Of a stretch of DNA of 64,000 nt, positions 3,366 through 20,694 are shown in pieces. A program made the position numbers and the translations under genes. Source of the stretch: Streptomyces sp. YIM 121038 (GTDB taxonomy: Bacteria; Actinomycetota; Actinomycetes; Streptomycetales; Streptomycetaceae); assembly GCF_006088715.1 (NCBI RefSeq), contig NZ_CP030771.1, positions 2,232,001 through 2,296,000 of the forward strand. The letters are read 5' to 3'. The notes under the pieces are model-generated. The model was not told where the DNA came from. It searched no databases and saw only the letters and a program-made list of their open reading frames with translations. Positions within the stretch are counted from its first letter, which is position 1; every line of letters begins with the position of its first letter.

Positions 3366-3403
3366 GGTCGCTATCCGTAGCGTCGTCTGTCCCAGTTTCG
3401 CAC

Positions 3404-3436
3404 ACCACCAGGGATTTCAGGTAATTATCTGGTGGT
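3404..3436 (+). promoter_or_regulatory. Palindrome upstream of the Phd-type gene (candidate autoregulatory operator)
   Basis: ACCACCAG (3404-3411) and CTGGTGGT (3429-3436) form a perfect inverted repeat ending 23 bases before the AAGGAGG site of the antitoxin-like gene. The spacer is A/T-rich. Phd/YefM proteins commonly repress their own promoters by binding palindromes, so this is the natural candidate operator. Confidence 0.5.
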
Positions 3437-3469
3437 TGCGAGCGAGTTGACCACCCGTAAGGAGGGCGT

Positions 3470-3727: not shown

Positions 3728-3742
3728 GGGGCCCGGACAGGG

Positions 3743-3788
3743 CGATGCCCCCGGTCCGTCACTCCCTTACGGGGAACCGGGGGCATCG
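3743..3788. terminator. Bidirectional terminator between antitoxin-like and recombinase genes
   Basis: A perfect 13-bp stem is formed by CGATGCCCCCGGT (3743-3755) and its complement (3776-3788) with a 20-base loop. It lies between two convergent genes and can serve both. There is no U-run. Confidence 0.65.
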
Positions 3789-3833
3789 ATGACGCGGTTA
3801 CGCGATCAAGGCTACGGCCTGCGAGGCTGGCGC

Positions 3834-4703: not shown

Positions 4704-4710
4704 GCCAACA

Positions 4711-4823
4711 GTCTCACAAGACTGTCTCTAAAAGTCAAGATTGGGAGACGGCTTGTGAGACTGACGTAGTGGAGATTCCAGGTCGCGAGCCACCTGTCTC
4801 ACAAACAAGTGCTTGTGAGACAG
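4711..4823. promoter_or_regulatory. Four GTCTCACAAG-type repeats upstream of the recombinase
   Basis: GTCTCACAAG at 4711-4720 faces its complement at 4752-4761. A second, tighter pair is CTGTCTCACAA at 4794-4804 facing TTGTGAGACAG at 4813-4823 (perfect 11-bp arms, 8-base spacer). On the minus strand a TTGACT hexamer (4738-4733) lies between the first pair, where a recombinase promoter would be. The arrangement suits either operators for autoregulation or the paired half-sites of a resolvase recombination site. Confidence 0.6.
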
Positions 4824-5340
4824 AGACCACAGGACGGAGAGACACAGGAGCAGGGACGCCTACGCCCACTCGGGCCATCGGGTCACCCGCTCCTCGCCAC
4901 CCGACCCACCATCCTCCGCTACGTACGTCGGTGAGTGGCACAGCAGGCAGGGGCGGCAAGCAGGGCCGAGGCGAGCGGCACGAAGACGGCGAAGACCACC
5001 ACGCCAGACCAGCACCACCCCCGGTCGCACACCTCGCTGCCCAAGTCGGAGAGGAGGAGGGACACACAATGCACTGCGCATGTACATCACTCATACACAT
5101 ACATGCATACATGTAACTAACAAGACACATCAGACACAGAGCACAGCACACAGCAGGGAACAGGAAACAGACCGGAACAGAAAACCTGCTGGCCCGGCAG
5201 GCGAGGCGCGCGAGCTAGGAGTTGTCGAAACAGAAAATCAAATACGTTTTCGAACTGCCTGATTGGGACCCGATTCAGGGCCATGCATCCGTCTCCGCGT
5301 GGGCTCCGTGGGCTGGCCTCGCGTGGGCTCCGTGGACCGG
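4824..5340. other. Intergenic region, unusual base composition, no convincing gene
   Basis: About 5080-5260 is A/C-rich on the plus strand and lower in GC than anything else in the window. It includes the near-palindromic ACATGCATACATGT area around 5100-5115. A 16-bp direct repeat (CGCGTGGGCTCCGTGG) occurs at 5296-5311 and 5320-5335. A TTG-initiated frame from 5222 was considered and rejected as a gene because it runs antisense into the 5341-5526 gene. Confidence 0.45.
5178..5201 (-). terminator. Rho-independent terminator for the 5822-5341 operon
   Basis: On the minus strand CCTGC (5201-5197) pairs with GCAGG (5189-5185) and is followed directly by TTTTCTGTT, a proper U-rich tail. It lies 140 bases after the last stop of the two-gene operon. 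Confidence 0.6.
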
Positions 5341-5526
5341 CTACGCGGAGGCTGGCTCGGCGGTCCGCCCGGGGTTCATCCGGAAGCGGTGGCACTGGCA
5401 CGGCGTCATCGCCCCGGGGATCCCCTCGCACGCTCCGCCGTCCTTGTGCCGCTTCTCGACGTGCTGACACACCGCGCAGATCCTCGCGATCCGGCCGGGC
5501 TCAAGCCCCCCGATCGCCTTCGTCAC
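5341..5526 (-). CDS. Cys/His-rich mini-protein, copy B
   Basis: The product has 61 residues with the ligand set C17, C20, H22, H27, C33, C43 and C45, matching copy A at 380-607 in order and spacing, including the KRH and PGA elements. Its ATG overlaps the stop of the upstream gene (5523-5822), so the pair is translationally coupled. It is probably zinc-binding. The two copies sit on opposite sides and strands of the replication/recombination block, which suggests either duplication or independent phage modules. Confidence 0.55.
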   Translation of the reverse strand: MTKAIGGLEPGRIARICAVCQHVEKRHKDGGACEGIPGAMTPCQCHRFRMNPGRTAEPASA

Positions 5527-5822
5527 GGCCCGCCCTCCACCATCACGGCTCGGGCCTTCTCCAGCTCCTCAATCGCCACCTGCATCGCCGTCAGCCCCGG
5601 CGAGGCGCCCTGCTCCTCCAGGCCGCCCACCATGATGTGCAGCACCACCAGGGCCGCATCCGTCAGGGCCGCAGCGTCCGGCATCCGCTCCAGGAAGCCC
5701 CTCGTCCACGCGGAGGCGTATTCGTCCCCCGTGACCCTCGCCCCCTCGGCGGCGGCCTGGAGTGCATGTGCCGCCCGCCTGCCTGCCGCCTCGCCCGCTG
5801 CTGGTGTGTGCCGGATGTCCAT
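5523..5822 (-). CDS. Hypothetical protein, 99 aa, mostly helical
   Basis: This is the first gene of a two-gene operon, with GGAGG upstream of ATG 5822. The product is Ala- and Glu-rich and predicted helical: AAGRRAAHALQAAAEG, LTDAALVVLHIMVGGLEEQG and AMQVAIEELEKARAVM. No family is recognised; small helical phage accessory proteins look like this. The last codons overlap the start of the Cys/His mini-protein. Confidence 0.55.
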   Translation of the reverse strand: MDIRHTPAAGEAAGRRAAHALQAAAEGARVTGDEYASAWTRGFLERMPDAAALTDAALVVLHIMVGGLEEQGASPGLTAMQVAIEELEKARAVMVEGGP

Positions 5823-5850
5823 ACGAAGGCCCCTCCTTGGGTGCCGGAAA

Positions 5851-5887
5851 CAGAAAACGACCCGGATCTCTCCAGGGTCGTTTTCTG
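5851..5887. terminator. Strong bidirectional terminator
   Basis: A perfect 13-bp stem (CAGAAAACGACCC at 5851-5863 with its complement at 5875-5887) has an 11-base loop. Both ends carry TTTTCTG, so U-rich tails exist on either strand. It closes the transcript of the capsid-protease gene. Confidence 0.8.
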
Positions 5888-5933
5888 GATCGCAGAAAAA
5901 TTTCGCTGGGATTTTCTACGGGGGGGCGGCCCC

Positions 5934-6989
5934 TCAGTAGAGAGGTCCAGTCATCTCGCCGGACGTGCCACCGGACGCATCCCCGTACGGCTTCATGGAG
6001 AGAAGGTCATCGATCTCGCGAATGGTGTCCGCCGAGGGATAGCCGTTGCCGTGTGCCGACTCGCTCAGACGCCGGGGGCCCTGCAAATCGCGCATCGTCA
6101 CGCCGCCGCCCTTCATCTCGCGGCGAAGCGTCGTCAGGTGGTACCGCTCCATATGGATGGCCTCGGTCAGGTTCTGCCCCGGGGCGTAGTCTTCGGCCAG
6201 CCGGACCATGGAGGACACCGGAAGACCGGATTGGATGATCTGGGCAATGATCTGACCCAGGCTCAGAGCCTTTCGGGCCTTCTCGTACTCTGCGGCGGTC
6301 CGCTCCTCAAGGGCGCTGATCGCTTCGAGAGTCTTCCGCTGCTCTGCGGACGCCTCCTTCAGTAGCTTGTGCTCTTCGCTCAGTGCCGCACAAGCACTCT
6401 TCTTCGCGATGCTCATCGACTTGATGTTCCGGGAAACCGATGCCCCGATGGACTTGAGTTCTTCCATCGGGTCACTCTTCACTGCGGACTCGGTCATGGT
6501 GACGAGCCTTCCTCCCGCGCATGCGCGGGTGACGACATCTGCGGAAAGCCCCTGGGTGATGGACGTGATGGTCCGCCGCCCGGATGGGGCCTCTTCGACT
6601 TCTCCGGCCGCCCGGATGGACAGGCCGATGACGGGGGCGAGCGTGGCGAGGCGCGTCCGGAATTCCGGGATGAACTGGATCCGGGCGAACAGTCCCCGCC
6701 CGTCCGCGGATTCCTCGAACCGGGCTGCGTCCACGAGATAGCCGATGAGGTCCTTCACGCTCCGCTCGGGGCGCTCTGAGTCCTCGTCGGGCGTCGGGTG
6801 GTCGGAGTAGACGTGTGTGCCCGCCGGGAACGCGGTAGGGCCATCCCTGCGCAGCACCTCGGCAGGGTAGTAGCCGCTGGCGCCCTGCACATCGGCCTCG
6901 ATGAGCCGGGCCCGCCAGATGCCTTTGCCCCCGGCCTCCGGACCGGATGGCACCAGCGGGGAGGCTTCGGTCAGGACCGCGTGGACCAC
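5934..6989 (-). CDS. Phage capsid maturation protease with scaffold-like C-terminus; 5' end probably frameshifted
   Basis: The protein is 351 residues from GTG 6989. Residues about 22-165 resemble actinophage prohead proteases: the GYYPAEVLRRDGP block, HVYSDHP with the likely catalytic His64, GLSIRA with the likely nucleophile Ser124, and TRACAGG. Residues about 190-255 form a coiled coil rich in Glu and Lys, as in protease-scaffold fusions that build the procapsid. GTG 6989 is only the best start left in this frame. An ATG at 7030 with GGAGG eight bases upstream lies in another frame and would join this one if the G-run at 6995-6999 had one more base. No capsid or portal gene is nearby. Confidence 0.75.
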   Translation of the reverse strand: MVHAVLTEASPLVPSGPEAGGKGIWRARLIEADVQGASGYYPAEVLRRDGPTAFPAGTHVYSDHPTPDEDSERPERSVKDLIGYLVDAARFEESADGRGLFARIQFIPEFRTRLATLAPVIGLSIRAAGEVEEAPSGRRTITSITQGLSADVVTRACAGGRLVTMTESAVKSDPMEELKSIGASVSRNIKSMSIAKKSACAALSEEHKLLKEASAEQRKTLEAISALEERTAAEYEKARKALSLGQIIAQIIQSGLPVSSMVRLAEDYAPGQNLTEAIHMERYHLTTLRREMKGGGVTMRDLQGPRRLSESAHGNGYPSADTIREIDDLLSMKPYGDASGGTSGEMTGPLY

Positions 6990-7802: not shown

Positions 7803-8837
7803 TCAGGCCCGTGCCTTGCGGTACAGGACCGAGCCGGCGAGCAGCATGCCCGCGCCCATCGGCAGGGCGACGCCCGCCGACAAGGGGCTGCCGGTCTCGG
7901 CCAGCTGGTCCTTGCCCTCGGGCGGGGTGAGGACCTGGGCGTCCGGCAGGTTCGGGGTGTCGACGGAGTGCGGGGTGCCGGGGTGGGCCGGGGCGTCCGC
8001 GCCGGGGTGACCGGGTCCGCCGGGGTGACCGGGCTTGACGGGTCCTCCCGGCTGCCCGGGGTGACCGGGCTTTCCAGGCTGCCCGGGCTTTCCGGGGTGA
8101 CTGGGCTGTCCGGGGTGACTGGGCTGTCCGGGGTGGTCGGGCTTCACCGGCCCCCCTGGCTGACCGGGCTTTCCGGGCTGGTCCGGAGTGCCGGGCTTCC
8201 CGGGGTGACCGGGCTTCCCGGGCTGATCCGGCTTCCCCGGGTGGCCGGGCTTTCCGGGTCCCCCGGGCTGGTCGGGGTTGCCGGGCTGGCCGGGCTGGGT
8301 CGGGTTGCCGGGGTGGCTCGGCCGCGTGGTACCGCCGCCCCCCTCGTTCGCGCAGTCGTTGCCCGTGACGGCGTTGCCCGCGCCGCCGATGGTGACGCTG
8401 TTGCCGCAGACGTTCACCGGGGCGTACACCGGCGCCTGCACGGTGTTGCCGGAGCCGATGCCGGGCGAGTCGTGCGTACCGCCGTGGGCCGACGAGCCGC
8501 CCCCCGAGGGCTGCTCCCCGTAGCCGCCGCCGTGTCCGTCGCCGTAGCCACCTCCGTGACCGCCGCCGTGGCCGCCGCCGTGTCCTGGCGAGCCGGACGA
8601 GTTCGTACAGCTGTTGCCGATCGCGGGATTCAGCGCCCCCACCACGTTCACGGTGTTTCCGCACGCGTTCACGGGAGCGTGTACGGGCACCTGCACCGAA
8701 TTGCCCGAAAGGACCCCCGGGGAATTCGAACTGGCACCATTCGCATTCGAGTCGGCGTGGGCGTAGCCGCTGGTGACCGCGAGTACGCCACCGGCGGCCG
8801 CCGCGGTGATCAGCCCTTTGCGCGTGACCTGTCGCAT
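7803..8837 (-). CDS. chpC: Long chaplin, sortase-anchored (ChpC type)
   Basis: This is a surface amyloid-forming protein of aerial hyphae, 344 residues. It has a signal peptide (about 1-29) and two chaplin domains, each with a Cys pair and the pattern SPG..SGN.VQ.PV.APVN.CGN, separated by a Gly/His-rich linker (GHGGGHGGG). A roughly 130-residue collagen-like stretch of PG repeats (HPGKPGQPG and variants) follows. The end is the sortase signal LAETG at 312-316, a hydrophobic segment and the basic tail YRKARA. ATG 8837 is preferred over upstream codons because the signal peptide begins there and AGGGAAAG precedes it. Known long chaplins are attached by SrtE and present short chaplins on the wall. 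Adjacent to chpH as in S. coelicolor. The PG spacer seems unusually long. Confidence 0.9.
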   Translation of the reverse strand: MRQVTRKGLITAAAAGGVLAVTSGYAHADSNANGASSNSPGVLSGNSVQVPVHAPVNACGNTVNVVGALNPAIGNSCTNSSGSPGHGGGHGGGHGGGYGDGHGGGYGEQPSGGGSSAHGGTHDSPGIGSGNTVQAPVYAPVNVCGNSVTIGGAGNAVTGNDCANEGGGGTTRPSHPGNPTQPGQPGNPDQPGGPGKPGHPGKPDQPGKPGHPGKPGTPDQPGKPGQPGGPVKPDHPGQPSHPGQPSHPGKPGQPGKPGHPGQPGGPVKPGHPGGPGHPGADAPAHPGTPHSVDTPNLPDAQVLTPPEGKDQLAETGSPLSAGVALPMGAGMLLAGSVLYRKARA

Positions 8838-8902
8838 TGCTTTCCCTGCCTTAGCTTCCGGAAATGCGCACGGGCCTCGTCGCGCCGTGCGCTCAATGCC
8901 CG

Positions 8903-8937
8903 CGGCCCCGGAGTGCATGGCACGCACTCCGGGGCCG
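8903..8937 (-). terminator. Terminator between chpH and chpC
   Basis: A perfect 14-bp stem (8903-8916 with 8924-8937) and seven-base loop lie 60 bases after the chpH stop. It separates the abundant short chaplin message from the long chaplin gene. Confidence 0.75.
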
Positions 8938-8994
8938 ATGGACTCAGACCCTCATTGGGGTGGCGCCCCCCTCAAGGGGCGAGGCACAGCAACG

Positions 8995-9228
8995 TCACTT
9001 GTTGACGCAGTAGTTGCCGAAGGCGGGGTTCAGCACGCCGATCACCGAGATGGTGTTGCCGCAGGCGTTCACCGGCACGTGCACGGGGATCTGCACGACG
9101 TTGCCGGAGACGACGCCCGGGGAGTGCACGGCGGCGCCCTGCGCGCCGGCGTCGGCAGCGGCGACGCCCGCACCGGCGAGCACCAGGCCACCGGTGGCAA
9201 CCGCGGCGGCGACAACCTTCTTGATCAT
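8995..9228 (-). CDS. chpH: Short chaplin (ChpH type)
   Basis: This is a 77-residue secreted amyloid peptide. It has a signal peptide (1-25, ending AAA|D) and a single chaplin domain with HSPGVVSGNVVQIPVHVPVN and C56 and C74, which form a disulfide in known members. Short chaplins self-assemble at the air-water interface and lower surface tension for aerial growth. GGAGG precedes ATG 9228. Its neighbour, the long chaplin gene, faces the same way but is behind its own terminator. Similarity and order fit S. coelicolor chpH. Confidence 0.93.
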   Translation of the reverse strand: MIKKVVAAAVATGGLVLAGAGVAAADAGAQGAAVHSPGVVSGNVVQIPVHVPVNACGNTISVIGVLNPAFGNYCVNK

Positions 9229-9410: not shown

Positions 9411-10748
9411 TTACGACGCGTCGATGAACCGGTCGAGCACGCGCACGCCGAACTTCAGACCGTCCACCGGTACCCGCTCGTCCACGCCGTGGAACATGCC
9501 CGCGAAGTCCAGCTCCGGCGGCAGCTTGAGCGGCGCGAAGCCGAAGCCGCGGATGCCGAGGTCGTCGAAGGACTTGGCGTCCGTACCGGCCGAGAGCATG
9601 TACGGGACGGCGCGGGCGATGGGGTCCTCGGCCTGGAGCGCCAGCTGCATGGCGTCCACGAGCGCGCCGTCGAAGGTGGTCTCCAGAGCCTTGTCCGCGT
9701 GCACGTCCTCCCGCCTGACGTTCGGCCCGAGGATCCGGTCCAGATCGGCGAGGAACTCCTCCTCGTACCCCGGCAGGAAACGTCCGTCGACGTGCGCGGT
9801 GGCCTGCCCGGGGATCACGTTGACCTTGTACCCGGCGCCGAGCTGGGTGGGGTTCGCGGTGTTCTGGAGCGAGGCGCCGATCAGCTTGGCGATGCCGCCG
9901 AGCTTGGCGAGCGTCTCGTCCATGTTCTCCGGGTCGAGCTCGGTGCCGAGGGCGTCGCCCAGCTCGTCGAGGAAGTGCCGCAGCGTCTTGGTGACGCGGA
10001 TCGGGAACTTGTGCCGCCCGAGTCGCCCGACGGCCTCGGACAGCTCCGTGATCGCGTTGTCCTTGTGGATCATCGAGCCGTGGCCCGCGGTGCCGTCCAC
10101 GGTCAGCTTCATCCAGTGCATGCCCTTCTGGGCCGTCTCCACGAGATACAGCCGCAGCTTCTCGTTGACGGTGAAGGAGAAGCCGCCGACCTCGCTGATC
10201 GCCTCGGTCACGCCCTCGAAGAGGTCCGGGTGGTTGTCCACCAGGTACCGCGCCCCGTACGTGCCGCCCGCCTCCTCGTCGGCGAGGAAGGCGAGCACGA
10301 TGTCCCGGGGCGGCTTGCGGCCGCTGCGCAGCCGGTCGCGCACGACCGCGAGGGTCATCGCGTCCATGTCCTTCATGTCGACGGCGCCGCGGCCCCACAG
10401 GCAGCCGTCGGCGATCTCCCCGGAGAAGGGGTGGTGCGTCCAGTCCTGGGCGTTGGCGGGGACGACGTCGGTGTGGCCGTGGATGAGCAGCGCGGGCCGC
10501 GACGGGTCCTCGCCCTCGATGCGGGCCACCGTGGAGGCGCGCCCCGGGTGCGACTCGAAGATCCGCGGTTCGAGCCCCACCTCCGCGAGCTTCTCCGCCA
10601 CGTACTCGGCGGCCTTGCGCTCCCCCGGCCCCGAGTGGTCGCCGTAGTTGCTGGTGTCCATGCGGATCAGGTCCCGGCAGAGGTCGACGACCTCGTCCTC
10701 ACCGGACCCGGCCCCCGCCACCCTGCCGCCCGTGGTCGGCTCGCTCAC
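9411..10748 (-). CDS. M20 family metallopeptidase (ArgE/DapE/CPG2-like)
   Basis: This is a cytoplasmic zinc exopeptidase or deacylase of 445 residues. The metal-binding pattern is complete: HGHTDVVP (H92, catalytic D94), WGRGAVDMK (bridging D124) and ADEEAGG (catalytic E158, ligand E159), with a dimerisation insert in the second half. The substrate cannot be read from sequence; this Streptomyces group is usually annotated as an M20/M25/M40 hydrolase. GTG 10748 follows GGAGG. It is a single gene upstream of the chaplins and downstream of the divergent tRNA. Confidence 0.88.
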   Translation of the reverse strand: MSEPTTGGRVAGAGSGEDEVVDLCRDLIRMDTSNYGDHSGPGERKAAEYVAEKLAEVGLEPRIFESHPGRASTVARIEGEDPSRPALLIHGHTDVVPANAQDWTHHPFSGEIADGCLWGRGAVDMKDMDAMTLAVVRDRLRSGRKPPRDIVLAFLADEEAGGTYGARYLVDNHPDLFEGVTEAISEVGGFSFTVNEKLRLYLVETAQKGMHWMKLTVDGTAGHGSMIHKDNAITELSEAVGRLGRHKFPIRVTKTLRHFLDELGDALGTELDPENMDETLAKLGGIAKLIGASLQNTANPTQLGAGYKVNVIPGQATAHVDGRFLPGYEEEFLADLDRILGPNVRREDVHADKALETTFDGALVDAMQLALQAEDPIARAVPYMLSAGTDAKSFDDLGIRGFGFAPLKLPPELDFAGMFHGVDERVPVDGLKFGVRVLDRFIDAS

Positions 10749-10926
10749 GCTGTTCCTCCCGCTGTCGCACTCTCGGTCCCCTCCATCCTCCCGCGCCGAC
10801 CGTCCGGGCCCAAGGGCGGGCGGCGCTCGTCATACGCCGTTCACGCTCATGACCTGCGTGATCAGGCACCCCCGAATGTTTGCTATGGTTTTCCACGTCG
10901 CCGCGGGAAACCGCGACAGACCACCG

Positions 10927-11014
10927 GTCCGGGTGGCGGAATGGCAGACGCGCTAGCTTGAGGTGCTAGTGCCCTTTATCGGGCGTGGGGGTTCAAGTCC
11001 CCCCTCGGACACCA
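10927..11014 (+). tRNA. tRNA-Leu (anticodon GAG)
   Basis: A class II tRNA folds cleanly. The acceptor stem GTCCGGG pairs with CTCGGAC (one G-T pair). The anticodon stem CTAGC/GCTAG encloses the loop TTGAGGT, giving GAG. There is a long variable arm (TGCCC...GGGCG), the T loop GGTTCAAGTCC, and an encoded CCA end. It reads CUC/CUU. tRNA genes are frequent integration sites, and the DNA just downstream carries a rare foreign-looking gene. Confidence 0.95.
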
Positions 11015-11018
11015 GCAG

Positions 11019-11042
11019 GAAAGCCCCTCTCGAGGGGCTTTC
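11019..11042 (+). terminator. tRNA-Leu terminator
   Basis: GAAAGCCCCT (11019-11028) pairs with AGGGGCTTTC (11033-11042), with a four-base loop followed by TTC, five bases after the CCA end. Confidence 0.85.
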
Positions 11043-11347
11043 TTCATGTCTGGGCAGGGGCGTGCCCCACGCGTGGCCGGGCAGCGGCTGGAGGATGGCT
11101 GTCAGAGGCGGCCCCTACTTCACGGAGTTCAGTGCGCCGCTCACGCGGGGGAGGACCCCCGAACCGCAACGTGAGGACATACCGCGCGCCCTGACGATAC
11201 GAGACCCCGATCGCGGGCACGCCTGTGACCACCGGGAGCTGGGTGTCCGCAACCGGGACGGCCAACCCGACCAGCGGCGGTCCAGGCCCCCGGTCCAGAC
11301 GGCCACATGAAGAGGACTTCGCCGGTGGATATCACTGGGGCGCGCTG
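11043..11347. other. Intergenic region after the tRNA, no clear gene
   Basis: Both strands show only short frames without ribosome sites. The base pattern lacks the third-position GC bias that returns at 11348. It could be decayed DNA left by an insertion at the tRNA. Confidence 0.4.
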
Positions 11348-11722
11348 ATGGAGGAGTTCCATACGGTGATGGACTCGGCGACCAGCACGTACTTCAACGT
11401 CCCCAAGAAGGCGTCCACCGAGGCGTGGGCCTTCGAAGTGGCCCGCAGACGCCTGCGGGACGGGGGCGTGGAACACGAGGCCGGTGACGACCGGCCGACG
11501 GTGTCGAGTCGTCCGTCGGCCGAGCCGGCGCAGCGGACCGGGCGCAAAGCGCCGGGCAGCGACGGCGCGCAGCGCCTGGTCGACGCCGCACGTCGGGCCG
11601 ACGTAGCGATCGAGGCGGCGGCACTCGTACGCGAGATCATCGGAAAGGCGGGGCCTCCACCGCCGAGGAGGTGCTGCGGGGCGGGACCGTCGGCCTCGGT
11701 CGTCGTGAAGTGCTGCCCCTAG
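11348..11722 (+). CDS. Hypothetical protein or remnant, 124 aa
   Basis: No family is recognised. The frame shows the strong third-position GC bias of real Streptomyces genes from ATG 11348 to about 11640, encoding MEEFHTVMDSATSTYFNVPKK and a helical C-terminal part (LVDAARRADVAIEAAALVREIIG). After that the codon pattern breaks and the last 25 residues are Pro/Cys-rich nonsense-like sequence, which suggests a truncated or frameshifted gene. There is no strong ribosome site; a start further upstream at 11225 is possible. Confidence 0.4.
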   Translation: MEEFHTVMDSATSTYFNVPKKASTEAWAFEVARRRLRDGGVEHEAGDDRPTVSSRPSAEPAQRTGRKAPGSDGAQRLVDAARRADVAIEAAALVREIIGKAGPPPPRRCCGAGPSASVVVKCCP

Positions 11723-11871
11723 GCACCCCTCGGCACTGCCCCGCGATCAACTGCAACGGCTTGTGGACCTCGGGCGAGGGTGCGAAGGCGCACTTCGGGA
11801 TCACCCGGGGGCCGCAGGCCGCGGACGAGACCGTGGTGGGGCGAGCGGCCCTGTGGAGTTCAGTGGCGGAG

Positions 11872-12282
11872 CTACTGGGGCCCGGTCCAGTACACCCCCT
11901 CCGGGTCGTACTTGGCGGACAGCTGGGACCACTCTGCGGGGCGGCTTGAGAAGGTGTACTCGATGACCGTGTTTGCGGCGTCGCGTTGTACGGGAGTGCA
12001 CTTCTCGCAGTCCGTTCGCAGGGCATCGGGGAGCAGCCGCTTCAGCTCCTTGGCGTCCGGGTCGCACTTCCCCTTGTCCATCAGGCAGTTGAAGTAGTTG
12101 TCGAAGCGGCGCTTGCTGTTCAGGATCTGGTCGACGTCGACGTTGTCGAAGCGGGCGGTGTAGGTCGCACCGGGCGGGGTCGGGTCGCTGGAGGGGTGTG
12201 CGGGAGCCGCTCCGGCGCCCGGTCCCGTGGCCAGGGCGGCCGCCAGGGCCGCGGTGAGGACGAATCCAGAGCTCAGTCGCAT
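11872..12282 (-). CDS. Secreted insect-type chemosensory protein (OS-D/CSP family) homologue
   Basis: The protein has 136 residues with a Sec signal peptide (1 to about 28). The mature part has the full arthropod CSP signature C66-x6-C73-x18-C92-x2-C95, the N-terminal motif YTARFDNVDVDQIL (41-54), NYFNCLMDKGKC, LLPDALRTDC and the ending LSAKYDPEGVY. Insect CSPs are six-helix carriers of small hydrophobic ligands with the disulfides C1-C2 and C3-C4. The bacterial gene has AAGGAG before ATG 12282, no introns and mostly GC-ending codons, so it is genuine chromosomal DNA and not contamination. It stops a few residues short of the usual insect C-terminus. It lies 0.9 kb after tRNA-Leu and diverges from a ThDP enzyme gene. 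Ligand carrying is inference; an extracellular location is likely. Confidence 0.88.
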   Translation of the reverse strand: MRLSSGFVLTAALAAALATGPGAGAAPAHPSSDPTPPGATYTARFDNVDVDQILNSKRRFDNYFNCLMDKGKCDPDAKELKRLLPDALRTDCEKCTPVQRDAANTVIEYTFSSRPAEWSQLSAKYDPEGVYWTGPQ

Positions 12283-12450
12283 GACTCTCCTTCGGGCGGG
12301 GGCCTTCGAGGGGGCGACTCCAGGACATCCGACGGGCCTGCGGGCTGCACCTCGGCCTGCTCCAGGCGTGTGCCTGAAGCGGTCCGGGCCCGTCGGTCGC
12401 CGGGTGCGGGGCCTGGCTGGAATGCGGCTGACGCTGGAGGGGTGTCTCAG

Positions 12451-14028
12451 ATGAGACTTGCGGCCATGCCGAACGGAGCCCAGTCCCTCATCAGCGGCCT
12501 TGTGGAGGCCGGAGTCCAGGTGTGCTTCGCCAATCCGGGCACGTCCGAGCTGCACATCGTGACCGCGCTCGACGACGTGCCACGGATGCGGCCGGTCCTG
12601 TGCCTCTTCGAAGGCGTCGCGACGGGTGCCGCCGACGGGTACGGCCGCATGACCGGCCGCCCCGCCGGCACGCTGCTGCACCTCGGCCCCGGCCTCGCGG
12701 GCGGACTGCCGAACCTGCACAACGCGCGCCGGGCCGGTACGCCCGTCGTGAACGTCGTGGGCGACCACGCGCTGCGGCACAAACGCCTCGACGCGCCCCT
12801 GGAGTCGGACATCATCGCGCTCGCCCGCACGGTGTCCGCGTGGACGCGGCGCGCGTACGACGCCACGGACCTCGCGGAGGACGCCGCCGACGCCGTGGCG
12901 GCCGCGGCCGGGCCGCCCGGGGCCGTCGCCACACTCGTCGTGCCCGCCGACGTCGCCTGGGCGGACGCCGAGAAGCCCGCCGCGCCGCAGCGCCGGGCCA
13001 CCGTCCCGCACGGGTTCGTGTCCGAGCGGGGCCTGGAGGAGGCCGCCGCGGTGCTGCGGTCCGGGGAGCCCGCCGCGCTGCTCCTCGGCGGCGCGGCCAC
13101 GCACGGGGCCGGGCTGCGGGCCGCCGCGCAGGTCGCGGGGGCGACGGGCGCGCGGCTGCTGTGTGAGACGTTTCCCGCGCGGCTGGAGCGGGGTGCGGGC
13201 CTGCCGCCCGTCGAGCGCCTCGGCTACCGGGCGGCCGACGCCGCGAGGCAGCTCTCCGGCGTACGCCATCTCGTGCTCGCCGGGGCGTCGCTGCCGGTGC
13301 CGTTCTTCGCGTACCCCGGGCAGAGCGGAGTCGTCGTACCCGACGGGTGCGAGGTGCGCGAGCTCGGCGGCGCGGGGCAGGACGTGGGGGTGGCCCTGCG
13401 GGAGCTGGCCGCCGCCGTGGGCGGCGCCACCGCCGCTGCGACGGCGCAGGAAGCGGGGCGGCCCCGGGTGCCCGGCGGAGAGCTCACCGCGGAGACCGCG
13501 GCCGCCGTGGTGGGGGCGCTGCTGCCGCAGGGCGCCGTCGTCGTGGACGAGTCCAACACGTCGGGGCTCTGGCTGCCCGGCGCGACCGCCGGGGCGCCGC
13601 CGCACGACTGGCTGACGCTCACCGGCGGGGCGCTCGGACAGGGCCTTCCGCTCGCCGTGGGCGCGGCCGTGGCGCGGCCCGAGCGGCCCGTCCTCGCGCT
13701 CGTCGCCGACGGGGCCGCGATGTACACGCTGCCCGCGCTGTGGACGCAGGCGCGGGAGGGGCTCGACGTCACGACCGTCGTCTTCAGCAACCGCGCGTAC
13801 GCGATCCTGGGGCTCGAGCAGGGGATGATGGGCGCCGCCGTGGGGGCCGCGGGGCGTGAGCTGTTCGACCTCGGGCGGCCCGAGTTGGACTTCGTCGCGC
13901 TGGCGCGCGGGATGGGCGTCCCCGCGGGGCGGGCCACGACCGTGGAGGGGTTCGCCTCGCTCCTGGAGCGGGGGTTGGCGGAGCCGGGGCCGTTCCTGGT
14001 GGAGTGCGTGGTGCCGCCCATCGCGTGA
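12451..14028 (+). CDS. ThDP-dependent acetolactate synthase-like enzyme
   Basis: This is a 525-residue ThDP enzyme of the acetolactate synthase/benzoylformate decarboxylase group. The N-terminal PYR domain has CFANPGTSELH and the catalytic Glu in LCLFEGVATGAADGYGRMTG. A central domain is followed by a C-terminal PP domain with the cofactor motif DGAAMYTLPALWTQAREGLDVTTVVFSNRAYAIL (GDG-like start, closing N). There is no FAD-binding certainty and no regulatory subunit nearby, so decarboxylase activity on a 2-keto acid is as likely as acetolactate synthesis. ATG 12451 is chosen for GGAGG ten bases upstream; ATG 12466 is an alternative. Confidence 0.82.
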   Translation: MRLAAMPNGAQSLISGLVEAGVQVCFANPGTSELHIVTALDDVPRMRPVLCLFEGVATGAADGYGRMTGRPAGTLLHLGPGLAGGLPNLHNARRAGTPVVNVVGDHALRHKRLDAPLESDIIALARTVSAWTRRAYDATDLAEDAADAVAAAAGPPGAVATLVVPADVAWADAEKPAAPQRRATVPHGFVSERGLEEAAAVLRSGEPAALLLGGAATHGAGLRAAAQVAGATGARLLCETFPARLERGAGLPPVERLGYRAADAARQLSGVRHLVLAGASLPVPFFAYPGQSGVVVPDGCEVRELGGAGQDVGVALRELAAAVGGATAAATAQEAGRPRVPGGELTAETAAAVVGALLPQGAVVVDESNTSGLWLPGATAGAPPHDWLTLTGGALGQGLPLAVGAAVARPERPVLALVADGAAMYTLPALWTQAREGLDVTTVVFSNRAYAILGLEQGMMGAAVGAAGRELFDLGRPELDFVALARGMGVPAGRATTVEGFASLLERGLAEPGPFLVECVVPPIA

Positions 14029-14088: not shown

Positions 14089-16947
14089 TCAGCGGGTCGG
14101 GTGGGGTGTCACCTGGCGCCACGGGGCGAAGGCGGTGGCCGTGCGCGGGAGGAGCGCGGCGAGTTCGGGGCAGTGGCGGAGGAGCACGGACTTCATGCCG
14201 CCCTTCTGGACCCAGTCGATGCCGAGCGGGGTGTAGATCTCGGGGCGGAAGTCGACGGTCAGGAAGCGGTCGCTCTGCAGGCGCCTGGTGGCCATCAGGA
14301 TGAAGACGCGGAACGCCGTGTCGCTGAAGCCGAATCCGGTGGGCGGGTTCTCGGCGAACAGGCCGATCACGGTGTCGATCTCGTCGACCGAGGCGTAGAC
14401 GTCCTTGAGGCGGGCCAGCGTCTCCGGGTCCTCGGTCAGGTCCTCGAAGCGGCGCACGCGCGGCTTGTGCAGACCCGCGAGGAAGTCGTTGTAGCGGGGC
14501 ACGCCGCGGCGCCGCGTACGGACGAGGTCGACGACGGACAGGTCGATGATCTCGCCCTCGCGTTCGAAGGCCTGGAGGGCGCGGGGGAAGTTGTGGAGCG
14601 TGATGGCGCCGGGGTGGGCGATGCCGAAGGAGTAGAGGGTGTTGGCCAGGCCCGTCTTGCGCAGTGCGCCCTCGGCGGCGGCGCCGTTGATGTCGGGGAA
14701 GCCGACGGTTTCGAGGCGCTGCCCGAACTGGTGCTCGCGCAGCTCGAAGTCGTCGGGGATCAGCGGGTGCATGCGGTAGACGGTGACGAAGTCCTCGGTG
14801 AGGGAGTACGGCGTGTGGTGGTGGTCGGGCAGCGTGCCCGGGATGCCGGTGAGCGCGTGGGCGTCGAAGAGCCACAGGCCGAGCTTGGTGAGCCAGCTGT
14901 CCGGCGGGCCGTCCCAGTTGGTGTGCAGTCCGATGTCGAGGGCCTCGGTGGCGAGGATCGCCGGGGTCCACTCCACGGTGTGGATCTTGGCGATGAGGGC
15001 GGAGACGACGAGCCGGGCCGTCTGGTAGACGGACTCCTCGCTCATGGCCGGGTAGGCCCCGCGCAGGGCGTCGCAGACGGCGTTGTGCTCGCGCGCGAAG
15101 AGGGTGTGCATGACGCTGAGGCCGAGCCACCAGCTGTCGGTGAAGCCGCTGAGCGGGACGCCGTGCCGGCCGATCGGCAGGTGCCCCTGCTCCAGGCGCA
15201 GCCGGGCGCCGCCGTCGGGGGCGCGCAGGGAGCGCGCGGTCGTCTCGTCCGCGCCGTACACCTCGGAGCCGTCCCACCAGTGCGAGGCGGTGTTGCCGAA
15301 GAGGACGGGCGGACGCCCCTCGGGCACGGGCAGGCCCTCGTTCTCGGCGAAGCGCATCACGGTCTCGGCGGGGCCGCCGGGCGTGTTGCGCCAGGACATC
15401 CCGCCGGGCAGCGGCACCTCGACGGTCTTGGTGCCCGCGGGGTGGCGCCGGTGGTTGACCCAGTCGTGCACCTGGAACTGGATCCAGGCGGCGGCGAGGA
15501 TGTTCAGCGAGGTCGCGGGCAGGAAGGTCTCGCGGTGCAGGAGCTGCCTGCTGACGGTGACGGGGTTCGGCGTGTCGAAGAGGTCGGGGCGGTAGTCGGG
15601 AGCGAGGTTGCGCCCGAAGGCCGCGCCGACGGAGCCCATGGCGGGCGCGGACAGGTCGTTGTACGTGCCGTCGTAGCTGCGCGCGGCGCGCAGCCGCTCG
15701 TCGGGCGGGCGCGGCACGGGCCCGGGCTTCGGCGGTGCCTCGTGCGCGTCGGTGTCGATGAGGTTGAAGCGGCGGAGCGCCCTGCGCAGGAAGACCAGGT
15801 TGAGCAGGCTCGCCCACGTCGGCAGGCGGTGCCAGGGCACGGAGCGGTTGAGGAGCCGGAAGGCGGCGCCCACGGGCGCTGAGAGGATCCGGTTGCGCAG
15901 GGGCTCCGGGGAGCGGAAGCGCAGGCCCGCGCGGTGGGCGGCGCTCGCTTCGTAGGCGGCCTTGCGGGCGCGGTTGAGGTTGCCGAGCGGCCGGAAGTCG
16001 TCGGTGGTGTACCAGGGGTTGAAGGCCAGTTCCTCCACGCGGCCCGCGGCGGCGCGGGCCGCGGCGGTGTCGAGGTCCTGGCTGGGGATGGTGAGCCGGG
16101 CGACGGGCAGGGCGGGCGCGACGGCCTCGCGCCAGTCGGTGGCGCCGTCCTCGATGGGGGTGCGCGTCTCGTCGACGTACCGCTGGACGCACAGGTCGAA
16201 GGAGACGTCGGCGCCCGCGAGCCGGTGTTCGAGGTCGCGGCGCAGGTGGTTGGGGTCGCGCCGGTCGGAGCGCGGCCCGGGTGCGGCGCCGCCCGCCGGG
16301 CGCAGCAGATAGCGGACGGGCCCCGCGTCGCCCCACAGGATCGCGCCGCGGCTCCAGTACGTCTCGCCCGCCAGGCTGGTGACGGCGTGCCGGGTGGCGG
16401 CTCGTACGGTGCGCCGCATGCGGGTGGCGGTGGCCGGGCCGACGGCCAGCGGCAGCTTGACGAAGAGGCCGAGGGCGGCCCGGAGCCGGCTGCGGGCGCC
16501 CGCCATGGCCCGGGCGAAGGCGACGAACTCGCGGGCGTCCTTGGCGTGGGACACCGGCCAGTTGGTGGCGAGCAGGTCGTGGCTCTCGTCGGCCGACACG
16601 TCGACGCGTACGGCGATGCCGCGCAGGTCGGCGGCGCCGTCGGCCTGCCGGATGCCGCTCGCGTTGGAGAGCCGTACGGTCGCCGGGTACTCGGCGCCGG
16701 GCCGGGCGAAGCCGCCGCGGAGCGCGTCGGGCAGGTCGTCGTGGAAGCGCAGGCGCGCGTTCTCCACGCCGAGCGCGGCCTTGGCGTGCTGGGTGCGGGC
16801 CAGGGAACCGGCGCCCGCCGCCCGCTTGTTGACGGCCTGGACCCTCATCAGCTCGCGGGCGAGCCGTTCGAAGACACGGCGCTCCGCTTCGGGGCTGCCG
16901 CCCAGATAGCGCTCGTAACTCCGCTCGTACGGTGTCGCTTGGGCCAT
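14089..16947 (-). CDS. Catalase-like / alpha-dioxygenase-type heme peroxidase fusion
   Basis: This is a 952-residue two-domain heme protein. Residues about 1-345 are catalase-related: distal His54 in RTQHAKA, VRLSNASG and the RGIAVR block, and R328-x3-Y332 in the proximal position (LNRARKAAYEAS). Residues about 420-950 resemble fatty-acid alpha-dioxygenases, linoleate diol synthases and cyclooxygenases: distal H494 in IQFQVHDWVNH, catalytic Y724 and proximal H727 in VYRMHPLIPDDF, and the HNAVCDAL helix. The expected chemistry is dioxygenation of a fatty acid by the second domain and processing of the hydroperoxide by the first. Corals fuse a catalase-like allene oxide synthase to a lipoxygenase in the same logic. 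ATG 16947 follows GAAGGGAAG. No signal peptide. Confidence 0.85.
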   Translation of the reverse strand: MAQATPYERSYERYLGGSPEAERRVFERLARELMRVQAVNKRAAGAGSLARTQHAKAALGVENARLRFHDDLPDALRGGFARPGAEYPATVRLSNASGIRQADGAADLRGIAVRVDVSADESHDLLATNWPVSHAKDAREFVAFARAMAGARSRLRAALGLFVKLPLAVGPATATRMRRTVRAATRHAVTSLAGETYWSRGAILWGDAGPVRYLLRPAGGAAPGPRSDRRDPNHLRRDLEHRLAGADVSFDLCVQRYVDETRTPIEDGATDWREAVAPALPVARLTIPSQDLDTAAARAAAGRVEELAFNPWYTTDDFRPLGNLNRARKAAYEASAAHRAGLRFRSPEPLRNRILSAPVGAAFRLLNRSVPWHRLPTWASLLNLVFLRRALRRFNLIDTDAHEAPPKPGPVPRPPDERLRAARSYDGTYNDLSAPAMGSVGAAFGRNLAPDYRPDLFDTPNPVTVSRQLLHRETFLPATSLNILAAAWIQFQVHDWVNHRRHPAGTKTVEVPLPGGMSWRNTPGGPAETVMRFAENEGLPVPEGRPPVLFGNTASHWWDGSEVYGADETTARSLRAPDGGARLRLEQGHLPIGRHGVPLSGFTDSWWLGLSVMHTLFAREHNAVCDALRGAYPAMSEESVYQTARLVVSALIAKIHTVEWTPAILATEALDIGLHTNWDGPPDSWLTKLGLWLFDAHALTGIPGTLPDHHHTPYSLTEDFVTVYRMHPLIPDDFELREHQFGQRLETVGFPDINGAAAEGALRKTGLANTLYSFGIAHPGAITLHNFPRALQAFEREGEIIDLSVVDLVRTRRRGVPRYNDFLAGLHKPRVRRFEDLTEDPETLARLKDVYASVDEIDTVIGLFAENPPTGFGFSDTAFRVFILMATRRLQSDRFLTVDFRPEIYTPLGIDWVQKGGMKSVLLRHCPELAALLPRTATAFAPWRQVTPHPTR

Positions 16948-17203
16948 CGGGCGCTTCCCTTCGCACGAGGTCGCGTACACGGCGGGAGGCGTCGACGCTA
17001 CTGGCGGCGCCGGGCGGCCGCAGCGCGCGATCCCGCCATGTGCGGGGGCCGCGCACGGGGTCGAACTGGCGGTCGGGCGGCGGTGTCCGGGCCCGTCAGC
17101 GGGGTGCGGCGGCGGCGCGGGGCGTCCCTCGCGGGCCTCGGCTCCCACGCACCCCACCGCGCCGGGTGCGGCGGTGGCCGGGTCGTGACGGGGCGCGGGC
17201 GGG

Positions 17204-17641
17204 TCAGTCGATGAAGTCGCCGTCCACGTAGACCCAGGCGCCGTCGACCCGCTCGAACCGGCTGCGCTCGTGCAGGGCGCCCGGGCTGCCGCCGTCGCGG
17301 TAGGCGGCGCGGAAGGTGACGGTGCCCGAGCTGTGGAAGGCGGTGCCGTCGGTGGTGTCCTCGATCTCCAGGCCCGTCCAGCGCAGCGCCGGGTCGAAGT
17401 CGACGCCCGGCGGGCGGGTGCGCGGATGCCACGTCCGCAGCAGATAGGCCTCGTCGCGCACGGCGAAGGCGCTGTAGCGCGACCGCATCAGCTCCTCGGG
17501 CGTGGCGGCGGCCGCCTCGCCGCGGTGCAGCCGCCCGCAGCACTTGTCGTACGGCAGGGCGGGGCCGCAGGGGCAGGCCCGGGAGCGGGGGGCACGGGGA
17601 GCACGGGGGGCGCGGGGCGCACGTGGGGACATGCGGGTCAT
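17204..17641 (-). CDS. YchJ-like SEC-C motif protein (UPF0225)
   Basis: The protein has 145 residues. The N-terminal metal-binding motif CPCGPALPYDKCCG is the SEC-C zinc signature, followed by ATPEELMRSRYSAFAVRDEAYLLRTWHP and an NTF2-like domain (FRAAYRDGG...ERSRFERVDGAWVYVDGD), which is the YchJ layout. The biochemical role is unknown. The first 18 residues are an APR repeat encoded by simple-sequence DNA. ATG 17641 and ATG 17632 are both possible starts; neither has a strong ribosome site. Confidence 0.85.
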   Translation of the reverse strand: MTRMSPRAPRAPRAPRAPRSRACPCGPALPYDKCCGRLHRGEAAAATPEELMRSRYSAFAVRDEAYLLRTWHPRTRPPGVDFDPALRWTGLEIEDTTDGTAFHSSGTVTFRAAYRDGGSPGALHERSRFERVDGAWVYVDGDFID

Positions 17642-17672
17642 TCTGCCGGGCGGGGCGGAGGCGGGGCGGGGG

Positions 17673-17752
17673 CGGGATGCGGGCGGGGCGGGATGCGGGC
17701 GGGGCGGGGAGTGGGCGGGGCGGGATGCGGGCGGGGCGGGATGCGGGCGGGG
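17673..17752. repeat. GC minisatellite, five 16-bp units
   Basis: CGGGATGCGGGCGGGG is repeated head to tail at 17673, 17689, 17705 (degenerate), 17721 and 17737, within the gap between the YchJ-like and gntR genes. Extra GGGGCGG-type sequence flanks it to 17648 and 17760. Length variation between strains is likely. Confidence 0.85.
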
Positions 17753-17783
17753 CGATGGGCGAGCCCCGAAGGGCCGCGGGCCG

Positions 17784-18485
17784 TCACGGGGCCAGGACGT
17801 CCAGTTCCTGGAGCGCGCCTTCCGCGATCTCGCGGGTCAGGGCCTCGGCGCGGGCCGGGTCGCCCTCCCGTACCGCCTCGGCGAGGCGCACGTGCAGGGT
17901 CACGGCCGCCGGGTCGGGGTCCTCGAACATCACGTCGTGGTGCGTACGGCCGGTCAGGACCTCGGCGACGACGTCGCCGAGGCGGGCGAACATCTCGTTG
18001 CCCGAGGCGTTCAGGACGGTGCGGTGGAAGGCGATGTCGTGCACCAGGTACGCGTCCAGCTGCTGGCCGCGCGAGGTGGCGACCATGCCGAGGGCGTACT
18101 CGGTCAGGGCGGCGCACTGCTCGGCCGTGGCGTGGCGCGCGGCGAGGCCCGCGGCGACCGGCTCGACCGCCGAGCGCAGGACGGTCAGGGAGCGCAGCTG
18201 GCGCGGGCGGTCGGCACCGGCCAGGCGCCAGCGGATGACCTGCGGGTCGTAGACGTTCCACTCCGCGGTGGGCAGCACGGTCACGCCGACCCGGCGCCGC
18301 GACGCGACCAGGTGCATGGACTCCAGGACCCGCACCGCCTCGCGCATCACGGAGCGGGACACCTCGAAGCGCTGCGCCAGCTCGTCCGTGCGCAGGACAC
18401 TGCCGGGCGGGTACTCGCCCCCGGTGATGCTGGGCCCGAGGCTGTCCAGTACGCGGGCGTGCAGCCCCGGGGCCTGTGCGGTCAT
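17784..18485 (-). CDS. gntR: GntR/FadR-subfamily repressor of gluconate use
   Basis: The protein has 233 residues. The winged helix is at about 10-75 (PGSVLRTDELAQRFEVSRSVMREAVRVLESMHLV) and an all-helical FCD effector domain at about 95-225 has the metal-site residues of the family (D/H pattern in AYLVHDIAFHRTVLNASGN and later HVRLAEAVREGD). It is divergent from gntK and gntP, so it very likely represses gluconate uptake and phosphorylation and is released by gluconate or 6-phosphogluconate. GTG 18539 gives 18 more residues, but then the GTCNGAC operators would lie inside the gene, so ATG 18485 is preferred. Confidence 0.88.
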   Translation of the reverse strand: MTAQAPGLHARVLDSLGPSITGGEYPPGSVLRTDELAQRFEVSRSVMREAVRVLESMHLVASRRRVGVTVLPTAEWNVYDPQVIRWRLAGADRPRQLRSLTVLRSAVEPVAAGLAARHATAEQCAALTEYALGMVATSRGQQLDAYLVHDIAFHRTVLNASGNEMFARLGDVVAEVLTGRTHHDVMFEDPDPAAVTLHVRLAEAVREGDPARAEALTREIAEGALQELDVLAP

Positions 18486-18521
18486 GGGGTCAGCGTACGA
18501 GGAGAGCAGCACGGTGAAAAA

Positions 18522-18560
18522 GTCAGACTTTTCTGTCACAGGCTCTTGAATTTGTCTGAC
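18522..18560. promoter_or_regulatory. Pair of GntR operators between gntR and gntK
   Basis: GTCAGAC (18522-18528) and GTCTGAC (18554-18560) are small palindromes of the GT-N-AC type that FadR-subfamily GntR regulators recognise. They flank the A/T-rich stretch that probably holds the divergent promoters. Confidence 0.65.
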
Positions 18561-18669
18561 CTAATGAGTTTCAGTGGCGTGAACGGAACGGGCCCGTGTC
18601 CGAAATCCCCCTGCGGGGAGCGGGCGACGCACCCCGGCCGATGTCGATGAAGACAGCGAGGCAGCAGCG

Positions 18670-19173
18670 ATGAGCACCCCCCACGTCGTCGTAGTGATGG
18701 GCGTCGCAGGAACGGGCAAGACCACGGTCGGCCCCCTGCTCGCCGCCCGGCTCGGCGTGCCCTACGCCGAGGGCGACGACTTCCACCCGCAGGCCAACAT
18801 CGCCAAGATGTCGTCCGGCACGCCCCTGACCGACGACGACCGATGGCCCTGGCTCGACGCCATCGGCGCCTGGGCGCGACTCCGCGCCGGGCACGGCGGC
18901 GTCGTCAGCTGCTCCGCCCTCAAGCGCGGCTACCGCGACCGGCTGCGGTCCGCCGCGCCCGGCCTCGTCTTCGTCCACCTCACCGGTGACCGGGCCCTCA
19001 TCGAGGACCGGATGAGCCACCGCGAGGGCCACTTCATGCCGACCGCGCTCCTGGACTCCCAGTTCGCGACCCTGCAGCCGCTCGGCGCGGACGAGGCGGG
19101 CGTGGCCGTGGACGTCGCGGGCACGCCGGAGGACATCGCGGACCGGGCGGCGAAGGCCCTGGCAGCCCGGTAA
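18670..19173 (+). CDS. gntK: Gluconokinase
   Basis: The enzyme phosphorylates D-gluconate with ATP to 6-phosphogluconate, the entry to the pentose phosphate pathway. The protein has 167 residues with a P-loop at 11-18 (GVAGTGKT), the gluconokinase motif EGDDFHPQANIAKMSSG, LTDDDRWPWL, VVSCSALKRGYRDRLR and the C-terminal GHFMPTALLDSQFATLQ. It is divergent from gntR and 114 bp upstream of the permease gene. Confidence 0.95.
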   Translation: MSTPHVVVVMGVAGTGKTTVGPLLAARLGVPYAEGDDFHPQANIAKMSSGTPLTDDDRWPWLDAIGAWARLRAGHGGVVSCSALKRGYRDRLRSAAPGLVFVHLTGDRALIEDRMSHREGHFMPTALLDSQFATLQPLGADEAGVAVDVAGTPEDIADRAAKALAAR

Positions 19174-19240
19174 CCCCCTCCCCGCACCCCTCCCCCGCAC
19201 CCCCTTTTCCTGCCCACTCCCCTTCCCCGCCCCCTCACGT

Positions 19241-19274
19241 ACGTACGCCCACACGCCGACGTACGCCCACACGC
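19241..19274. repeat. 16-bp direct repeat in the gntK-gntP gap
   Basis: ACGTACGCCCACACGC occurs at 19241-19256 and 19259-19274. The preceding 65 bases are nearly pure pyrimidine on the plus strand. It could affect expression of gntP; no function is known. Confidence 0.6.
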
Positions 19275-19287
19275 ACAAGGAACCACC

Positions 19288-20694
19288 GTGACCAGTCTCA
19301 GCGTCGAGATGCTGGCAGCGGACCCCGTCGAACCGATCACCTCGGCGGGCCATGCCCAGCTCGGCCTCGCCGTCCTCGCGGGCATCGCCGTCATCGTCCT
19401 GCTCATCACGAAGTTCAAGGTCCACGCCTTCCTGGCGCTGACCATCGGCTCGCTGGCCCTCGGCGCCTTCGCCGGGGCCCCGCTCGACAAGGCCATCGCC
19501 AGCTTCACGACCGGGCTCGGCAACACCGTGGCGGGCGTGGGCGTGCTCATCGCGCTCGGTGCGATCCTCGGCAAGCTGCTCGCGGACTCCGGCGGCGCCG
19601 ACCAGATCGTGGACACGATCCTGGCCAGGGCCGGGGGTTCCGGCGGCCGGGCCATGCCGTGGGCCATGGTCCTGATCGCCTCGGTGATCGGGCTTCCGCT
19701 CTTCTTCGAGGTCGGCATCGTCCTGCTGATCCCGGTGGTGCTCATGGTCGCCCAGCGCGGCAACTACTCGCTGATGCGGATCGGCATCCCCGCGCTCGCC
19801 GGTCTGTCCGTGATGCACGGCCTGATCCCGCCGCACCCCGGCCCGCTCGTCGCCATCGACGCGGTACAGGCCAACCTCGGCGTGACGCTGGCCCTCGGTG
19901 TGCTCGTCGCCGTCCCCACCGTGATCATCGCGGGGCCGGTGTTCTCCAAGGTCGCCGCGCGCTGGGTGGACGTGGCACCGCCGGAGAAGATGATTCCGCA
20001 GCGGGCCTCGGAGGAACTGGAGAAGCGGCCCGGGTTCGGCGTCACGGTCGCCACCGTGCTGCTGCCCGTCGTCCTCATGCTCTCCAAGGCGCTGGTCGAC
20101 ATCGTCGTGGACGACCCCGACGCGACCGTGCAGCGCGTCTTCGACGTCGTCGGGTCGCCGCTGATCGCGCTGCTCGCGGCCGTGCTCGTGGGCATGTTCA
20201 CGCTGGGACGGGCCGCGGGCTTCACCAAGGAGCGGCTCTCCACGACCGTCGAGAAGTCGCTCGCGCCCATCGCGGGCGTCCTGATGATCGTCGGCGCGGG
20301 CGGCGGCTTCAAGCAGACGCTCATCGACGTCGGGGTCGGGCAGATGATCCTCGACTTCTCCGAGGACTGGTCCATCCCCGCGCTGCTGCTCGCCTGGCTG
20401 ATCGCCGTCGCGATCCGGCTCGCGACGGGCTCCGCGACCGTGGCGACGATCTCGGCGGCGGGGCTCGTGGCGCCGCTCGCGGCGGACATGTCCACCTCGC
20501 ACACGGCCCTGCTCGTCCTGGCGATCGGTGCGGGCTCGCTCTTCTTCAGCCATGTGAACGACGCCGGGTTCTGGCTGGTGAAGGAGTACTTCGGCCTGGA
20601 CGTCGGCCAGACGATCAAGACGTGGTCGGTGATGGAGACGATCATCTCGGTGGTGGCGCTCGGGTTCGTGCTGCTGCTTTCGCTCGTGCTGTGA
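19288..20694 (+). CDS. gntP: Gluconate:H+ symporter, GntP family
   Basis: This is an inner-membrane gluconate importer of 468 residues with about 12-14 hydrophobic segments, within the usual 440-470 range. GntP hallmarks include the GVGVLIALGAILGKLLADSGGA region, LFFEVGIVLLIPV, SVMHGLIPPHPGPLVA and the C-terminal ATGSATVATISAAGLV plus SLFFSHVNDAGFWLVKEYF. GTG 19288 follows AAGGAA. It forms the gluconate module with gntK and gntR. A long hairpin ends the transcript. Confidence 0.95.
   Translation: MTSLSVEMLAADPVEPITSAGHAQLGLAVLAGIAVIVLLITKFKVHAFLALTIGSLALGAFAGAPLDKAIASFTTGLGNTVAGVGVLIALGAILGKLLADSGGADQIVDTILARAGGSGGRAMPWAMVLIASVIGLPLFFEVGIVLLIPVVLMVAQRGNYSLMRIGIPALAGLSVMHGLIPPHPGPLVAIDAVQANLGVTLALGVLVAVPTVIIAGPVFSKVAARWVDVAPPEKMIPQRASEELEKRPGFGVTVATVLLPVVLMLSKALVDIVVDDPDATVQRVFDVVGSPLIALLAAVLVGMFTLGRAAGFTKERLSTTVEKSLAPIAGVLMIVGAGGGFKQTLIDVGVGQMILDFSEDWSIPALLLAWLIAVAIRLATGSATVATISAAGLVAPLAADMSTSHTALLVLAIGAGSLFFSHVNDAGFWLVKEYFGLDVGQTIKTWSVMETIISVVALGFVLLLSLVL

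Follow-up and report, generated by a model that had tools for sequence, protein, structure and literature searches.

An arthropod-type chemosensory protein gene in a variable block of a Streptomyces chromosome

Introduction

Chemosensory proteins (CSPs, Pfam family OS-D) are best known from arthropods, and a gene of this type in a Streptomyces chromosome raises the questions of whether it is genuine, where it came from, and what it might do there. The gene lies in a 64,000-nucleotide stretch of Streptomyces sp. YIM 121038 (contig NZ_CP030771.1, positions 2,232,001 to 2,296,000), which is referred to in full length as the window. To our knowledge, few transfers from animals to bacteria have been documented in chromosomes that are close to complete. 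We consider it probable that an arthropod gene reached actinomycetes long ago, was passed between them, and specifies a secreted protein that carries hydrophobic small molecules. The window CSP is relevant to the contested idea that insects acquired their CSPs from bacteria, and it makes a clean test protein for studying the function of bacterial CSPs.

CSPs have been reported from Kitasatospora and other bacteria of several orders in PMC7230875 and PMC12940638, the former listing Kitasatospora purpeofusca among the carriers. The original prediction, made from the DNA alone, mentioned CSP-like sequences in a few bacteria; the window case is not unprecedented, and since Kitasatospora CSPs are already published, it is a rare addition to a known oddity. 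In the literature listings and text passages covered, which name Kitasatospora, Actinoallomurus, and other bacteria, no CSP from Streptomyces sensu stricto was found. PMC12940638 states that no functional work on bacterial CSPs has so far been carried out. The genomic setting of the window CSP and a partner gene upstream of both Kitasatospora-type CSPs are new here.

The gene is a genuine member of the OS-D family

The gene and its parts are as follows.

11872..12282, minus strand: CSP (OS-D) gene, 136 residues, ATG start, TAG stop
12287..12293, minus strand: ribosome-binding site GAAGGAG of the CSP gene
12208..12282, minus strand: probable Sec signal peptide, residues 1-25, read by eye from the sequence
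11887..12162, minus strand: OS-D domain, residues 41-132, with four cysteines and helices A-E but no helix F, from Pfam, the structural model, and the chain end

The protein matches Pfam OS-D (PF03392) over model positions 1-92 of 93 with an E value of 5e-35 and 119.9 bits, the curated cut-off being 25 bits. A sequence search of the PDB returned seven distinct sequences (E 5e-31 to 4e-22), all seven of which are named chemosensory proteins, and the best solved relatives are insect CSPs with at most 51% identity across the domain. A match by chance is thereby excluded, and the gene is a genuine OS-D/CSP family member, as first proposed. The coordinates were exact from the start, while the minus strand, left unstated, had to be supplied. 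Cysteines C66, C73, C92, and C95 have the predicted C-x6-C-x18-C-x2-C spacing, and the four flanking motifs DNVDVDQIL, NYFNCLMDKG, LPDALRTDC, and AKYDPEG are all present.

The gene carries bacterial signals. GAAGGAG stands 4 nt ahead of the ATG, bearing out the claim of its own ribosome site; the frame is uninterrupted, in agreement with the reported lack of introns; and the N terminus, read by eye, looks like a Sec signal peptide of the kind suggested. A consensus scan of 11600-12500 found no sigma-70-like promoter, and a scan of the same interval found no terminator-like site on the CSP strand, the single one being on the opposite strand.

The codons had been described as adapted to high GC, which holds only in part. 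Third-position GC is 0.883, compared with 0.95-0.98 in 18 nearby genes. On a score resembling the codon adaptation index (CAI), trained on the same 18 genes that serve for comparison, the CSP gene reaches 0.60, its two wrong frames 0.20 and 0.16, and the 18 genes 0.71-0.87; another four ORFs in the vicinity whose codons are poorly adapted, of which three are phage-like, score 0.40-0.54. The codons are suited to a high-GC host, less fully than those of most neighbours, and we infer that arrival from another actinomycete fits better than arrival directly from an animal.

These data also bear on whether insect DNA contaminated the sequencing, an idea that draws on the family being best known from arthropods. 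The gene sits inside a contig of 10130554 bases, combines its third-position GC with a bacterial ribosome site and an uninterrupted frame, and has relatives in other actinomycetes. Given these gene signals and the mapped location, contamination is very unlikely and was rejected.

Fold and binding pocket

A template-free model built from two bacterial sequences (pLDDT 60) has insect CSPs as its best structural matches (Foldseek/VIA); an earlier model (mature protein, two rows; pLDDT 44.8) was not used. The model contains helices A-E, which form the pocket. Of the six-helix CSP fold named with the original prediction, the core A-E is present, while helix F is absent: the chain stops five residues past Y131. 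The seven matched PDB chains extend at least 12 residues beyond the match, tags possibly included. The C-terminal helix F, usual in insect CSPs, packs outside the core according to PMC3485014; it lies beyond the end of the Pfam OS-D model and was not treated as family-defining.

The closest solved relatives differ at the same end. The Anopheles culicifacies CSPs, or sensory appendage proteins (9iw4 and 9iw7), share the core fold and 51% and 48% of domain residues with the window CSP, but they are animal proteins with a longer C terminus. CSPMbraA6 of Mamestra brassicae (1n8u, 1n8v, 1kx9) likewise has a longer C terminus; it is reported to bind three bromo-dodecanol molecules (PMC3485014). The K. 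purpeofusca NRRL B-1817 CSP has an OS-D domain (126 bits), a signal-like N terminus, the four cysteines, and 58% domain identity in common with the window CSP, yet its C terminus is longer.

Conservation was read from columns shared by six insect rows. Of 24 hydrophobic columns, the window CSP keeps 22, K. purpeofusca 24, and the third bacterial protein, from genome G404, 18; for the 23 invariant columns, the numbers are 17, 18, and 13, respectively. Each insect row, left out in turn, retained 23 of the 24-28 columns that do not vary among the remaining rows; in the same columns the window CSP keeps 17-20, so it is more diverged than the six insect CSPs are among themselves. The nine published contact residues of BodoCSP4 correspond to V48, V50, I53, L54, L80, L83, L84, A87, and V106; all nine are hydrophobic and eight are the identical residue. 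This mapping was made by hand with a constant offset of 20, taken from the published helix limits and Cys75, the BodoCSP4 sequence itself being unseen. The ‘door’ Tyr24 of a Spodoptera CSP, hand-mapped via its Cys53/Cys56, corresponds to the conserved Y63. Judged from these residues, the pocket is conserved in the window CSP.

Distribution and origin

PF03392 matches are rare. Two overlapping draws of Streptomyces genomes gave one match each (1/392 and 1/363), both times in the genome of the window itself (G000), so the CSP is rare in this genus. A family-wide draw gave three matches in 394 genomes, namely G000 and two Kitasatospora-type genomes, and a phylum-wide draw gave G000 only (1/396). 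Within the Kitasatospora-type genus (g14), 2 of 70 genomes matched, one being K. purpeofusca NRRL B-1817 (G550). None of 14 genomes from another family of the order had a match. The 14 control genomes were likewise blank in every OS-D search, which leaves the window itself as the positive control.

A plasmid or phage source was rejected: tblastn gave no CSP among 72,556 plasmid records, with the window and K. purpeofusca proteins as queries, or among 50,697 phage records, with the window protein as query. Viral contigs searched by pattern likewise contained none, and the DNA of 11015-12456 matched no plasmid. Pattern scans of genome contigs found no CSP with the window protein alone and only that of K. 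purpeofusca with a three-row alignment. Such scans are narrow, the three-row scan having missed G404, if present there, so that absence in them means little.

A tree of nine rows and 92 columns, with 200 bootstrap trees, groups the window and K. purpeofusca rows with two Anopheles CSPs (85/93), although none of the branches has the program's strict mark. G404 forms a very long branch. The three bacterial rows are not one group in the best tree and form one in 5% of the bootstrap trees. Domain identities are 58% between window and K. purpeofusca, 51% between window and 9iw4, 53% between K. purpeofusca and 9iw4, and 36% between window and G404. From these sequences, one origin for the three bacterial CSPs is possible.

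Two directions of transfer have been put forward. PMC7230875 and PMC12940638 argue for a bacterial or pre-animal origin, with arthropods having acquired their CSPs from a bacterial family of great age. The several bacterial orders listed there, the divergence of the G404 protein, and the failure of the bacterial rows to form one group are in its favour. It fits poorly with a family present in G000 only of 396 phylum-wide genomes and in 2 of 70 Kitasatospora-type genomes, and with the placement of two bacterial rows beside dipteran CSPs, non-strict as that branch is. Part of those papers' case, moreover, is built on bacterial entries that match silkworm CSPs exactly; we suspect these of being contaminants, although PMC7230875 denies contamination. 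We regard this origin as improbable. The grouping in the tree and the sparse bacterial spread favour, without proving, the direction from arthropod to actinomycete. The window CSP was most likely acquired horizontally, an arthropod origin, as originally raised, being the best reading.

A reported insect-to-Streptomyces transfer offers a parallel: the Hymenoptera-derived gene for a putative antimicrobial peptide on pSCL4 of Streptomyces clavuligerus (PMC6406012). That case differs from the present one in the protein concerned and in being borne on a megaplasmid.

A variable block between tRNA-Leu and a GntR gene

The CSP gene sits between a tRNA-Leu(gag) gene and a GntR gene, in a block with the following features.

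10927..11014, plus strand: tRNA-Leu (gag), left edge of the variable block
11109..11682, plus strand: fragments matching a 530-residue ORF of the relative G014, internal and 3' parts lost here
12451..14028 (start approximate), plus strand: thiamine-pyrophosphate (TPP) enzyme of NCBIfam family NF005760 (acetolactate synthase large subunit), transcribed away from the CSP gene
14089..16950 (start approximate), minus strand: fusion of a weak catalase match with a haem peroxidase that is closest to fatty-acid alpha-dioxygenases
17204..17641, minus strand: YchJ-M-like gene near the right edge
17784..20694, strand not assigned: GntR regulator (Pfam), then gluconokinase-like and gluconate-permease-like ORFs (by eye), right edge

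The block is called variable in the sense that its gene content differs between relatives, and nothing more. Of the same-genus matches listed that begin in the M20 peptidase gene, most lose their DNA similarity at about the end of the tRNA. Genome G005 has the same two edges and the same gene order at the right edge but encloses different genes, namely RluA-like, metallo-hydrolase-like, and dehydrogenase-like ORFs (named by eye). Similarity to G014 continues past the tRNA to window position 11682, within the 530-residue ORF at the same tRNA, whose HNH-endonuclease matches are weak and below the cut-off; the CSP stop codon is about 190 bases beyond this point. An integrated element marked by an att pair was considered. 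Even with three mismatches allowed, the window contains a single copy of the 21-base 3' end of the tRNA, so no such repeat supports it.

With the block variable between relatives, the CSP is probably recent at this site. Its arrival in this genome also looks recent, as judged from its absence from the other sampled members of the genus, the variable block, and the partly adapted codons. The claim that any transfer is old may accordingly hold for the entry into actinomycetes, but probably not for the presence in this genome.

A partner gene beside the Kitasatospora-type CSPs

Both Kitasatospora-type CSP genes have a small gene directly upstream on the same strand, 22 and 39 bp away, whose product looks secreted; the pairs span approximately 9934-10879 of locus L004 and 9727-10635 of locus L005. 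The spacing in K. purpeofusca is 22 bp, and, unlike in the window, the 20 kb read around its CSP gene contain no tRNA. The two partner proteins are 46% identical over 127 residues. Neither matches a Pfam family, and the one searched against NCBIfam matches none there. At an E value of 1e-6, the partner gene has six copies in 5 of 70 Kitasatospora-type genomes, of which both CSPs adjoin one and four copies lie apart from any CSP. In G000 it has two weak matches of equal score on contig C2 (210022-210513 and 936232-936723; 38% identity, E 3.4e-8), neither beside the CSP gene. Found twice, the partner gene offers a second handle on the role of bacterial CSPs. It is the strongest hint that these proteins serve a function under selection, but a hint that does not extend to the window copy.

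Possible role of the protein

The favoured course of events, entry of an arthropod CSP gene into actinomycetes long ago, would have been followed by sparse spread through horizontal transfer, with relatives in Kitasatospora, and by arrival in this genome in the variable block beside tRNA-Leu. The protein would be exported and held together by two disulfides. Its A-E helices form the cup that insect CSPs use to hold fatty alcohols and other oily compounds of this kind, and it would most likely bind hydrophobic small molecules outside the hyphae, carrying or sequestering them. Signalling, pheromone capture, and lipid shuttling, as originally suggested, are possible uses in the bacterium.

A transferred CSP might also be a passenger that has kept its frame and has no selected role in this strain. 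Its rarity among genomes, its position in a variable block with a decayed gene as neighbour, the missing helix F, the partial codon adaptation, the blank promoter scan of 11600-12500, and the lack of an adjoining partner gene all fit such a passenger. Against it stand a frame that has stayed intact, a strong ribosome site, an N terminus that resembles a signal, and the conserved cysteines and pocket positions; two Kitasatospora-type genomes also retain CSPs, each beside the same kind of partner gene. We consider a passenger rather unlikely.

A more specific proposal concerns arthropods themselves. Streptomyces meet arthropods through volatiles, 2-methylisoborneol being an attractant of flies (PMC7490686), which makes a role of the CSP at this interface plausible. 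Some Streptomycetaceae might have put captured arthropod CSPs to use as secreted proteins that bind oily signals made by arthropods or by themselves, such as cuticular lipids, pheromones, and terpenoid volatiles, and Kitasatospora might do so with a dedicated partner as a two-protein secreted system. We find this doubtful; if true, it would mean that a borrowed animal carrier works at the interface between bacterium and arthropod.

Neighbouring genes

The TPP enzyme matches NF005760 with 711.6 bits. The haem peroxidase part of the fusion at 14089-16950, about 1.8 kb from the CSP gene, is nearest to solved fatty-acid alpha-dioxygenases (E 6e-102), which invites the idea of a local oxylipin system in which the CSP would carry products of this enzyme; a moth CSP has been solved with a fatty-chain ligand (1n8u). 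However, the TPP gene intervenes on the opposite strand. Furthermore, among 61 genomes drawn in the genus, the fusion is nearly full length in eight others and fragmented in a ninth, and G000 alone of the 61 has a PF03392 match, G001-G060 having none. None of these nine carries the TPP gene at an E value of 1e-50; of ten genomes tested, G014 alone has it, and G014 has the catalase-like part only. An oxylipin system involving the CSP is therefore very unlikely, and a functional or travelling cassette of the three genes was rejected, as the fusion and the TPP gene occur apart. Proteins similar to the fusion are found on Rhizobium plasmids.

Three further observations concern the surroundings. 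A GC-rich unit of 16 bases is tandemly repeated at 17653-17764, between the YchJ-like and GntR genes. On the other side, two chaplin-domain genes (ChpA-C) adjoin the M20 peptidase gene at 7803-9228. Finally, 81-6989 is a phage-like stretch with tail-completion-, replication-initiation-, DNA-invertase-, and head-maturation-protease-like ORFs, and the three ORFs scored there have poorly adapted codons.
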